Assembly: GCA_018970255.1 (NCBI GenBank)
Contig: JAGWWS010000009.1
Location: forward strand, 1 to 64,000
Source: Verrucomicrobiota bacterium
GTDB lineage: Bacteria; Verrucomicrobiota; Verrucomicrobiia; Chthoniobacterales; Terrimicrobiaceae
Length of the DNA: 64,000 nucleotides
Direction of reading: 5' to 3'
Every line of letters begins with the position of its first letter. Positions within the stretch are counted from its first letter, which is position 1. Below the pieces are notes generated by a model that did no database searches, was not told the DNA's origin, and was given only the letters and a program-made list of their open reading frames with translations. This document shows, piece by piece, positions 37,970 through 40,916 of the stretch. Position numbers and translations under genes: made by a program.

Positions 37970-38902
37970 ATGAATTTTCTTCTGGCGCGGGCGGCGAATC
38001 TTTTTCCGGTTTGGCTCCTGATTTTTTGCGGGCTCGCGCTGGTGGAGCCGGGGATTTTTACCTGGTTCTCGGGTCAATGGATCGTGGGTGCGCTGATGCT
38101 GATCATGCTTGGAATGGGGCTGACGCTGGAGCCGGCGGATTTCCGCGCGGTGGCGAAAATGCCGGGAGCGGTGCTGGCGGGATTCATCGGCCAATACACG
38201 ATCATGCCAATCGCAGGATGGACGACGGCGAAAATGCTGGGCCTGCCTACGGATTTCGCGGTGGGGCTGATTCTGGTCGCGTGCGCGCCGGGCGGGACGG
38301 CATCAAATGTGGTGACCTACATCGCGCGGGCGAATGTCGCGCTTTCGGTGGTGATGACCTCGTGTTCGACGCTGGCGGCGGTGGTGGTGACACCGTGGCT
38401 CACGCAATTGCTGGCCGGGGCGTATTTGCCGGTGGATGGGTGGGGGATGTTTTTGACCACGCTGCAGGTGGTGCTGGGGCCGGTGGCGCTGGGGGTGTTT
38501 TTGAACCGGCGGCTGCCGCGAGTGGCGGCATCTTTCGTGAACTGGGGACCGTTGGTCTCGGTGGTTTTGATTTGTATGATTTGCGCGAGCATTGTCGGCC
38601 AGGGGCGGGAGGCGATTTTGCAGCACATCGGCGTTCTGGCTCTCGCGGTCGGGATGCTGCACGGATTCGGATTTTTTCTCGGCTGGTTGGCGGCGTGGGC
38701 GCTGGGGTTCAAGCCGCCCGAGGCGCGGGCGATTTCCATCGAGGTCGGCATGCAGAATTCGGGGCTGGCGGCGGTTCTGGCCAAGGCGCACTTCGCGGCG
38801 AATCCTCTCACGGCGGTGCCCGCGGCGCTCTCCAGTGTGGCGCACAGTTTGATCGGGAGCTGCCTCGCGGCGTATTGGAGGGCGCGGGGCGTGAGGAACT
38901 GA
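37970..38902 (+). CDS. Bile acid:sodium symporter (BASS) family transporter
   Basis: 310 aa with about nine or ten membrane helices. LMLIMLGMGLTLEPADF, the ACAPGGTASNVVTYIARANVALSV crossover region (split over helix 4) and EVGMQNSGLAAVLA are the family's sodium and substrate sites. Imports organic anions with Na+; likely substrates include pyruvate, pantoate or bile-acid-like acids, and cannot be chosen by sequence alone. It ends one base from the convergent HtrA-like gene. Confidence 0.9.
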   Translation: MNFLLARAANLFPVWLLIFCGLALVEPGIFTWFSGQWIVGALMLIMLGMGLTLEPADFRAVAKMPGAVLAGFIGQYTIMPIAGWTTAKMLGLPTDFAVGLILVACAPGGTASNVVTYIARANVALSVVMTSCSTLAAVVVTPWLTQLLAGAYLPVDGWGMFLTTLQVVLGPVALGVFLNRRLPRVAASFVNWGPLVSVVLICMICASIVGQGREAILQHIGVLALAVGMLHGFGFFLGWLAAWALGFKPPEARAISIEVGMQNSGLAAVLAKAHFAANPLTAVPAALSSVAHSLIGSCLAAYWRARGVRN

Positions 38903-38903
38903 A

Positions 38904-39923
38904 TCAGTTCGGATGCGGCATGCCGGAGTCGGCCCGCATTTCTTTGACTGCGGCGCTCGGGTGCAGGACCGGCATGACGGGGATGTCCATCTGCCTCCCC
39001 TCGCGGGCGATCTGGATTTTCGCCTCCTCGCCGGCGGTGAGATAGTAGGCCGCATCGACGAGATCCTGGATCGAGCAAACTTTTCGGCCGTTGACCCCGA
39101 GAAGAATGTCGCCTTTGTGAAGCCCGAATTTCGCGGCCGGAGTGTCTGGCATCATGGTGACCACACGGGCGGTGGAGCCATCGACTGCGTCCGAGGCGTC
39201 TTCCACTTCGACGCCGATCCAGCCCGGGCGGAGTTCACCGAAGCGGGCGATGTCGCGGCGGATTTTTTCGGCGGCGCCGATGGGGAGAATGTAGCAGGAC
39301 CCGCCCTGGCCGATGCGGGCGGCGACGATCCCGATGACATTTCCATGGAAATCCACGACAGGCGCTCCGCCGTAGCCGGGCTCGACGGCCATGTTCAACC
39401 GCAGGTGCGAGGTGGAGAATTGCTTTCCGTTTTGATGGAAGTCGCGGCTGGCGATGAGGCCGAGCGTGGGGCTGGCCTCGAATTCGCGGGGGAATCCGAT
39501 GGCGATGACGGGGGTGGCGTTGCCGACGTGGTCGGAGTTTCCGACCGGAATGAAGGGGCTGATGCACTCGGTCTTCAGCAATGCGATGCCGGTGCGCGGA
39601 TCGCTGGCGATGATGCGGGCGGGGAGAGTGCGGCCTTGGAAATTCACGCTGACATCATCGGCCTTCATCACGATGCCCGAGTGCGTGTAGACCGTGCCGG
39701 AGGGGTCCACGAAAAACCCGCTGCCGAGGCGCACCCCGAGAGCATCGCTGGCACGCACTCGAACGACGGCATTGCGGTGGAGTTCAAAAAGCCGGGTGAT
39801 TTCCGAGTGAATGGATTCGGCGAGCGGGTCGGCCGATGCCCGGGGGGACAGGGAGATGGACAAACCGATGGCGCAAAGCGCCAGCGCGGTGCGGGCGAAA
39901 TTAGAAGCTCCGTTTCGACGCAT
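38904..39923 (-). CDS. HtrA/DegP-like protein with all catalytic residues lost (pseudoprotease), PDZ domain
   Basis: 339 aa: signal peptide (about 1-31), trypsin-like fold (about 40-220) and one PDZ domain (about 235-320, GDILLGVNGRKV). Aligned to the canonical S1C motifs, His is Gly83 (VYTHSGIV in place of TNAHVV), Asp is Gly112 (DPRTGIALL in place of TDLAVL) and Ser is Gly185 (EPGYGGAPVV in place of PGNSGGPLV), while the surrounding fold (GSGFFVDPSG, GFPREF, DFHGNVIGI) is well kept. This is not a broken gene: the frame is full length. It overlaps the anti-sigma gene by 23 bases, so it may be a periplasmic sensor or scaffold that binds protein C-termini. ATG at 39923 chosen. Confidence 0.85.
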   Translation of the reverse strand: MRRNGASNFARTALALCAIGLSISLSPRASADPLAESIHSEITRLFELHRNAVVRVRASDALGVRLGSGFFVDPSGTVYTHSGIVMKADDVSVNFQGRTLPARIIASDPRTGIALLKTECISPFIPVGNSDHVGNATPVIAIGFPREFEASPTLGLIASRDFHQNGKQFSTSHLRLNMAVEPGYGGAPVVDFHGNVIGIVAARIGQGGSCYILPIGAAEKIRRDIARFGELRPGWIGVEVEDASDAVDGSTARVVTMMPDTPAAKFGLHKGDILLGVNGRKVCSIQDLVDAAYYLTAGEEAKIQIAREGRQMDIPVMPVLHPSAAVKEMRADSGMPHPN

Positions 39924-40320
39924 AGCTGACAACCTCCGCCGGGAGGACGTATTCGACTGCGGTGAGCGGCTTGGCGGGGTTGGCCGGTTTTTGCGGAGCG
40001 CCGAGTTGGATATTTTGGCCGCCCGCGAGGCTCATGTTCACAGGGTTGGAATCATCGACCTCCGAGCCGGACCAATTGAAAATGGAAATGCCTGCGAGGA
40101 TCGCCACCGCGAAGGAGGAGGCGAGGGCCAAGCGAGGGATGGGGGGAGGGGTGAAGACCGAACAGAGGCGGTCCCAGGCGACCTTGATGAAAGGCCGGTG
40201 AATGACTTCGGCGCGCTGCCGAAGCTGAAACTCCGCGAGGAAATCCTCAAAAAAGTCCCCGGGAGGTTGCTCGTATCTTTTCAGACGAAGGAGCTTGCTG
40301 ATGCTTTCGTTTGGTTCCAT
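39901..40320 (-). CDS. Small single-helix membrane protein, probable anti-sigma factor
   Basis: 139 aa: charged N-terminal cytoplasmic region with SKLLRLKRYEQPPGDFFEDFL, one membrane helix (about 62-82) and a short periplasmic tail. It follows the ECF sigma gene by eleven bases and precedes the HtrA-like gene, the normal place for a membrane anti-sigma factor. It lacks a zinc-binding HxxxCxxC motif, so it is not a ZAS-type anti-sigma. The role is inferred from position. Confidence 0.7.
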   Translation of the reverse strand: MEPNESISKLLRLKRYEQPPGDFFEDFLAEFQLRQRAEVIHRPFIKVAWDRLCSVFTPPPIPRLALASSFAVAILAGISIFNWSGSEVDDSNPVNMSLAGGQNIQLGAPQKPANPAKPLTAVEYVLPAEVVSYASKRSF

Positions 40321-40331
40321 CGAATGGATAG

Positions 40332-40916
40332 TTATTTTTTTATAAACTCTTGCAGGTGGTTTTGCAACTGCCTGTGTGCGTAGAAAAGCCGTGAGCGCAC
40401 CGTGCCTTCCGAGATTTTTAGGATTTTCGCGATTTCCGCGTGGGGCATTCCCTGAATGTCAAACATGGTGACCACTGCTCTATGGTCGTGGGACAGCTTC
40501 ATCATGGATTCGTTCAATTTTTTTTGAAGCTCGGAGAGGTTCGCCTCGCGGTGTGGGTCGCCGTTGCTCGTGGCCTCGATGAAGTCGGGGTCGTTGAGGA
40601 TTCCGTTGTCCACATCGTCGAGGCTCATGGTTTTGCGCCGATTGCGCTTTTTGAGGAAATTGATCGCCATGTTCACGGCGATGCTGTGCATCCAGGTGTA
40701 GAAGCTGGATTTTCCCTGGAAGCCTTTGATCGAACGATAGGCCTTCGCGAAGACCTCCTGGAGGATGTCGTTCGTGTCCTCATGGCTGGAGGTCATGTTG
40801 TAAATGAGGCCGTAGAGGCGGGGGCTGAACCGGATGACGAGTTGGTCGAACGCGCGGGCGTCACCACTTTGCGTGCTTCGCACGAGTTGCTCGTCTGTCG
40901 GATCGGGGCTGTCCAT
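40332..40916 (-). CDS. ECF-type RNA polymerase sigma factor (RpoE-like)
   Basis: 194 aa: sigma region 2 (about 25-92, FDQLVIRFSPRLYGLIYNM and ILQEVFAKAYRSIKGFQG) and region 4 (about 130-185, helix-turn-helix HAEIAKILKISEGTVRSRL). Directs transcription of a stress or envelope regulon. ATG at 40916 preferred; 40928 is possible. It forms a leftward unit with the next two genes and is separated from the M23 gene upstream by a terminator. Confidence 0.92.
   Translation of the reverse strand: MDSPDPTDEQLVRSTQSGDARAFDQLVIRFSPRLYGLIYNMTSSHEDTNDILQEVFAKAYRSIKGFQGKSSFYTWMHSIAVNMAINFLKKRNRRKTMSLDDVDNGILNDPDFIEATSNGDPHREANLSELQKKLNESMMKLSHDHRAVVTMFDIQGMPHAEIAKILKISEGTVRSRLFYAHRQLQNHLQEFIKK

Follow-up and report, generated by a model that had tools for sequence, protein, structure and literature searches.

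The window, by which we mean the whole stretch of 64,000 nucleotides that was analysed, encodes an HtrA-family protein in which the catalytic triad has been lost, as it has in all of the orthologues examined, and which can be classed as a pseudoprotease on the grounds that this loss is conserved among orthologues under purifying selection; its non-proteolytic status is predicted. The gene stands third in a cluster on the minus strand, following those for an ECF sigma factor and for a putative anti-sigma factor with a single TM helix (Table 1), and this sigma/anti-sigma setting points to a role more specific than the general non-proteolytic one proposed in an earlier note on this DNA, which mentions neither strand nor operon. 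We judge the chances to be about evenly balanced that the protein works in the periplasm as a non-cutting regulator of an RpoE-like envelope-stress switch, in which its PDZ domain would bind the tail of the adjacent membrane protein.

Table 1. Positions in the window of the three clustered genes and of features within their products.
Feature	Position	Strand	Basis or remark
HtrA-like pseudoprotease gene	38904..39923	(-)	339 aa; trypsin-like domain + one PDZ domain
Sec signal peptide of pseudoprotease	residues 1-31 (...SPRASA-D)	(-)	called by eye
Trypsin_2 match	39327..39725, residues 67-199	(-)	Pfam, E 9.7e-16, above cut-off
PDZ_2 match	38982..39221, residues 235-314	(-)	Pfam, E 3.1e-12, above cut-off
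Gly83 codon GGC, catalytic His position	39675..39677	(-)	alignment
Gly112 codon GGC, catalytic Asp position	39588..39590	(-)	alignment; Gly in 48/48 order orthologues
Gly185 codon GGC, catalytic Ser position	39369..39371	(-)	alignment; GYGGAP replaces GNSGGP
Single-TM protein, putative anti-sigma factor	39901..40320	(-)	139 aa; stop overlaps pseudoprotease start by 23 nt
Predicted membrane helix of putative anti-sigma factor	40069..40134, residues 63-84	(-)	prediction
Conserved C-terminal tail AVEYVLPAEVVSYASKRSF-COOH, proposed PDZ ligand	39904..39960	(-)	partner-protein comparison
RpoE-like ECF sigma factor, first gene of cluster	40332..40916	(-)	194 aa; Pfam, NCBIfam

The open reading frame of the pseudoprotease is read from 39923 to 38904, from an ATG at 39921-39923, and its span is exactly the one given in the earlier note; a TTG at 39932 offers an alternative start, and the overlap with the upstream gene that the ATG gives is found in many orthologues. 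A convergent gene on the plus strand (37970-38902) encodes a transporter of the sodium/bile-acid-symporter family (SBF); its stop and the end of the pseudoprotease gene are 1 bp apart. By fold and homology the protein belongs to the HtrA/DegP family, with a trypsin-like domain followed by a PDZ domain. That both are intact and full length, as had been thought, is borne out by the Trypsin_2 and PDZ_2 matches and by an AF2 model made with 46 orthologues as input (pLDDT 90.3; pTM 0.84). A Foldseek search with this model returns DegQ, DegP, MucD and DegS as the best matches (probability 1.00), and the matches include DegS with a bound YQF peptide. The PDZ domain has a loop of the carboxylate-binding type, G-W-I-G-V, and a conserved helix at residues 284-298 (family consensus EDVLDASFFLTAG), both of which are more conserved among the orthologues than the domain on average. 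With this loop and helix, it may be a DegS/AlgW-like binder of aromatic C-termini.

In phmmer alignments to DegP-like, MucD and AlgW chains, T-H-S-G83-I-V lies over T-N-N-H-V-V, D-P-R-T-G112-I-A over D-P-x-T/S-D-x-A, and P-G-Y-G185-G-A-P over P-G-N-S-G-G-P. These alignments and the residue numbering agree in placing Gly83, Gly112 and Gly185 where DegP, MucD, AlgW and DegS have their catalytic His, Asp and Ser, just where the earlier note had put them, and the protein has neither the His-Asp-Ser triad nor the GNSGGP motif of an active HtrA/DegP serine protease. Orthologues turned up in most of the 58 related genomes searched, with scores well separated from those of normal HtrAs in the same genomes; the sets used comprise 48 full-length proteins from the order and 20 from outside it (19 of the same class and one, from G061, of another class of the phylum). 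A working triad is absent from 68/68 of these, where counts of loci are not counts of independent events. At the Asp position glycine is found in every one of the 48, and Gly or Asn in the other 20. The Ser position is mostly Gly or Ala within the order, with Ile and others also seen, while the His position drifts among Gly, Ser, Tyr, Ala, Asp, Asn and more. None of the 48 has His or Asp at its own site, and the single protein to retain the Ser (1/48; G027) does so without either. All three glycines occur together in 14/48, all in the window's own family (f1). Conservation of the glycines thus holds for Gly112 within the order and fails for the variable Gly83 and Gly185, and the earlier argument that the three residues were lost independently, and each time to glycine, has to be given up, only the change at Asp being fixed (Gly, with Asn elsewhere). 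Because the His and Ser positions vary, and the Gly-Gly-Gly combination is limited to those f1 proteins, glycine itself is not under selection, and we rejected it as the selected residue.

In a maximum-likelihood tree that kept the catalytic columns (3 of 292), the 68 dead proteins are split from 11 normal HtrAs by a 100/100 branch, the placement of the long G061 branch being uncertain. Pairwise dN/dS values among the orthologues range from 0.03 to 0.30, and the two that involve the window's gene, 0.30 and 0.16, are rough owing to high dS. By these comparisons the pseudoproteases form one ancient clade, distinct from normal HtrAs and under purifying selection. The dead triad across the order and outside it, the single clade, the dN/dS values and the kept gene order together support the view, taken from the outset, that a non-proteolytic role has been retained and that the gene is not decaying. 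Two single-contig genomes of 0.9 Mb from the same order (G031 and G040) are without the pseudoprotease; a 2.5-Mb genome of the same genus (G047) has the cluster.

The first gene of the cluster encodes an ECF sigma factor, as seen from TIGR02937 (111.5 bits against a cut-off of 42.9) and from Pfam Sigma70_r2 and r4_2. RpoE models are among its best NCBIfam matches, the RpoE equivalog TIGR02939 scores 132 bits against a cut-off of 236, and by these profiles the protein is RpoE-like, not RpoE. A search upstream of 24 sigma orthologues for an autoregulatory promoter of the RpoE type (GGAAC N14-19 ...) gave one weak match only and so lends no support to such a promoter. From the end of the sigma gene to the ATG of the putative anti-sigma factor there are 11 nt. 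Both genes lie upstream of the dead HtrA in 47/49 loci of the order, one miss being a contig end; at loci of the class and phylum outside the order, the TM partner is present in 20/20 and an adjacent sigma factor was found in 12.

The TM protein in the window matched no Pfam or NCBIfam family and no known anti-sigma domain. It has the layout of a membrane anti-sigma factor, adjoining an ECF sigma gene and consisting of an N-terminal helical domain (predicted at modest confidence), one TM helix and a periplasmic part; along the chain, an N-terminal motif LLRLKRYEQPP..YF..F is followed by the membrane helix, which a linker that differs greatly in length between proteins joins to a conserved tail. 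Gene order, topology and the predicted helices suggest that it is an anti-sigma factor. The last ~18 residues are conserved, with the consensus P-x-Y-V-L-x-x-R-P-V-S-Y-x-x-x-x-S-F in the order, where the C-terminal residue is Phe in 46/46 proteins; once G035, G036 and the 20 loci from beyond the order are counted, 68/68 end in an aromatic residue (62 Phe and 6 Tyr). Some of these endings, FSF and YSF for example, are similar to the YxF/WVF tails by which DegS and AlgW are activated (PMC8545111, PMC8103513). At one locus outside the class (L130, in G061) the partner has an extra N-terminal region that is weakly DUF4880-like (E 0.006, below the cut-off, in this relative only), and it ends NVDYSF, similar to the C-terminus of an outer-membrane protein.

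We propose that the N-terminal helices of the TM protein, as an anti-sigma factor, would hold the sigma factor in the cytoplasm, and that the PDZ domain of the pseudoprotease would bind its periplasmic tail. Because ~18 conserved residues exceed a PDZ ligand, the tail probably makes a second contact, perhaps in the cleft that once took up substrate; R175, which is present in 46/48 of the order and is Gln in normal HtrAs, adjoins this cleft by alignment. Binding of the tail would set the stability of the anti-sigma factor without cutting, by controlling the access of real proteases, most simply through shielding, as RseB shields RseA, with delivery instead being the other possible sign. Envelope damage may undo the complex, either through misfolded proteins, whose C-terminal peptides would compete with the tail, or through lipid, and after release the site-2 protease RseP, which is present in the window's genome, and an active HtrA or other site-1 protease would degrade the anti-sigma factor and so free the sigma factor. 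Competition by OMP peptides is unsupported in the window's genome, because the one Omp85-type protein read there ends ...SAEL and not in Phe; LptD of this genome carries a C-terminal extension, and porin O/P is absent from it. The BamA model TIGR03303 has no match in this genome. As a tentative extension, possible rather than probable, there could be a class-wide circuit in the Verrucomicrobiota in which the dead HtrA acts as a pure reader, its PDZ domain holding an OMP-like tail built into the anti-sigma factor, and in which the signal would be competition for the tail and not the activation of cutting.

A profile search with the TM protein also finds homologues in three further families, f15, f17 and f18. 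The first includes many genomes of 2-3.5 Mb that, by their size and number, appear to be Akkermansia-like, and there the next gene encodes a protein of 290-340 aa that aligns along its length with the pseudoproteases, in which Pfam detects the PDZ domain and hardly or not at all the trypsin domain; the gene order persists. The f15 loci that have the three-gene cluster with this more degenerate HtrA are L165, L166, L168-L172, L174 and L176. Their family's TM proteins end in EF, VF or DF, with Met in some Akkermansia-like genomes. In f18 no dead HtrA adjoins the TM protein, whose last residue is Arg, Gln or Tyr and is aromatic in 1/6. In f17 a dead HtrA was neither adjacent nor detected, yet the final two residues of the tail are Lys-Phe or Arg-Phe; those HtrAs of f17 with readable motifs have a normal GNSGG or GDSGG, and normal-triad HtrAs are plentiful. 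The anti-sigma-like proteins of f17 (L179-L191, L196-L198) are 260-300 aa long with a conserved [IL]KF or LRF tail. Since f17 keeps a Phe-ended tail without a dead HtrA, the tail may have other binders, and the rule that an aromatic tail is found if and only if a dead HtrA is found is partly supported, fitting f18 and not f17. Comparison of the three families gives a good, though not perfect, fit to an order of loss in which the protease site would have gone first and the protease core after it, the PDZ domain and the aromatic tail lasting longest.

Among other explanations, the one that survives best is that the pseudoprotease is a general periplasmic chaperone or holdase that binds unfolded proteins, placed in the operon since the sigma factor controls genes for envelope quality, and that the anti-sigma tail has another partner; we consider this fairly unlikely. 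HtrA proteins keep chaperone activity without the active-site Ser, as in DegP S210A, and the pseudoprotease has a signal peptide and not a membrane anchor. MucD, moreover, is an HtrA from the same kind of operon, mucD belonging to the P. aeruginosa algTmucABD operon (PMC6264809). A chaperone role would, however, leave unexplained both the co-conservation of an aromatic tail in the adjacent protein and the retention of the PDZ domain during decay of the protease core in f15. Also unlikely, in our estimation, is that the pseudoprotease serves an active HtrA as its adaptor or allosteric partner, whether in mixed trimers or by handing the anti-sigma tail to a competent paralogue. Such a partner would be at hand in the two normal-triad HtrAs of the window's genome, and MamO is needed for proteolysis by MamE without a triad of its own (PMC4794232). 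In three f8 genomes (G042, at locus L055, G032 and G050) a DegP-like gene with a normal triad lies ~5-7 kb from the dead one, but over the order no single active HtrA is consistently linked to the dead gene.

That a new chemistry has arisen where the triad once stood, by a relocated nucleophile or by metal binding, we hold to be very improbable: metal binding by MamO is a precedent (PMC4794232), and the family has its own invariant polar residues in the order (D60, H173, R175 and K220), but H173 is Tyr in other orders, no Ser or Cys is conserved across the orthologues as a replacement nucleophile, and His81, which the earlier note had named as a possible member of a working triad, is present in only 18/48. 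A triad rescued through His81 or another Ser or Cys was rejected in the absence of any conserved candidate. A pseudogene, local mutation or sequencing error can be dismissed, the same loss being found in 68 loci from many assemblies with open frames and the dN/dS values given above, and no close relative in this orthologue family having a normal triad.

Pseudoproteases of the HtrA family are already known (MamO, PMC4794232), as are HtrAs in sigma/anti-sigma operons (MucD). In the open-access papers searched, which do not extend to most subscription journals, we found no account of an HtrA that is dead throughout a class and is encoded in a sigma/anti-sigma operon beside a TM partner with such a tail. 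If the regulatory role proposed here is correct, the Verrucomicrobiota, which include lineages of soil and water and the Akkermansia-like genomes with their more degenerate version, would gain an envelope-stress switch with a binding-only HtrA, and the pseudoprotease would be a clean conversion of an enzyme to a regulator at the step of DegS, AlgW and MucD, where the textbook system cuts. It raises a testable question, namely whether peptide binding by an HtrA can alone control an anti-sigma factor, and proposes a function for an unannotated family of TM partners that current databases miss.

The pseudoprotease is like MucD in being a periplasmic HtrA encoded in an RpoE-like sigma/anti-sigma operon (algU-mucA-mucB-mucD in P. 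aeruginosa), and MucD is its second-best sequence match in the PDB (PDB ID: 8k2y; E 9.7e-32) and stands high in the fold search; MucD, however, keeps the GNSGGP active site, whereas the triad is gone throughout the pseudoprotease family. With DegS and AlgW, whose PDZ domains bind C-terminal YxF/WVF peptides and which both act on an anti-sigma factor (PMC8545111, PMC8103513), it has in common a trypsin-like domain with a single PDZ domain, and lacks the second PDZ domain of DegP. These two are membrane-anchored active proteases that cut RseA and MucA, whereas the pseudoprotease has a signal peptide and no triad, and it scores 97.1 bits with the DegS model TIGR02038 against a cut-off of 422.95. 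MamO is an HtrA-family pseudoprotease kept by selection (PMC4794232); it differs in keeping its His and Asp (only Ser is changed, to Thr), in binding metal, in its TauE-like fusion and in its part in magnetosome formation. The MamO model NF040961 gives the pseudoprotease 38 bits against a cut-off of 800, with the match limited to the protease domain. The fold of RseB is, to our knowledge, unrelated to that of HtrA, with no PDZ domain and no protease fold. RseB and MucB are periplasmic and non-proteolytic, and each shields an anti-sigma factor with which it shares an operon (PMC8103513, PMC8545111). The likeness to them lies in the proposed role only, that of a non-proteolytic periplasmic binder of an anti-sigma factor, but one that would be built on a DegS/MucD scaffold.
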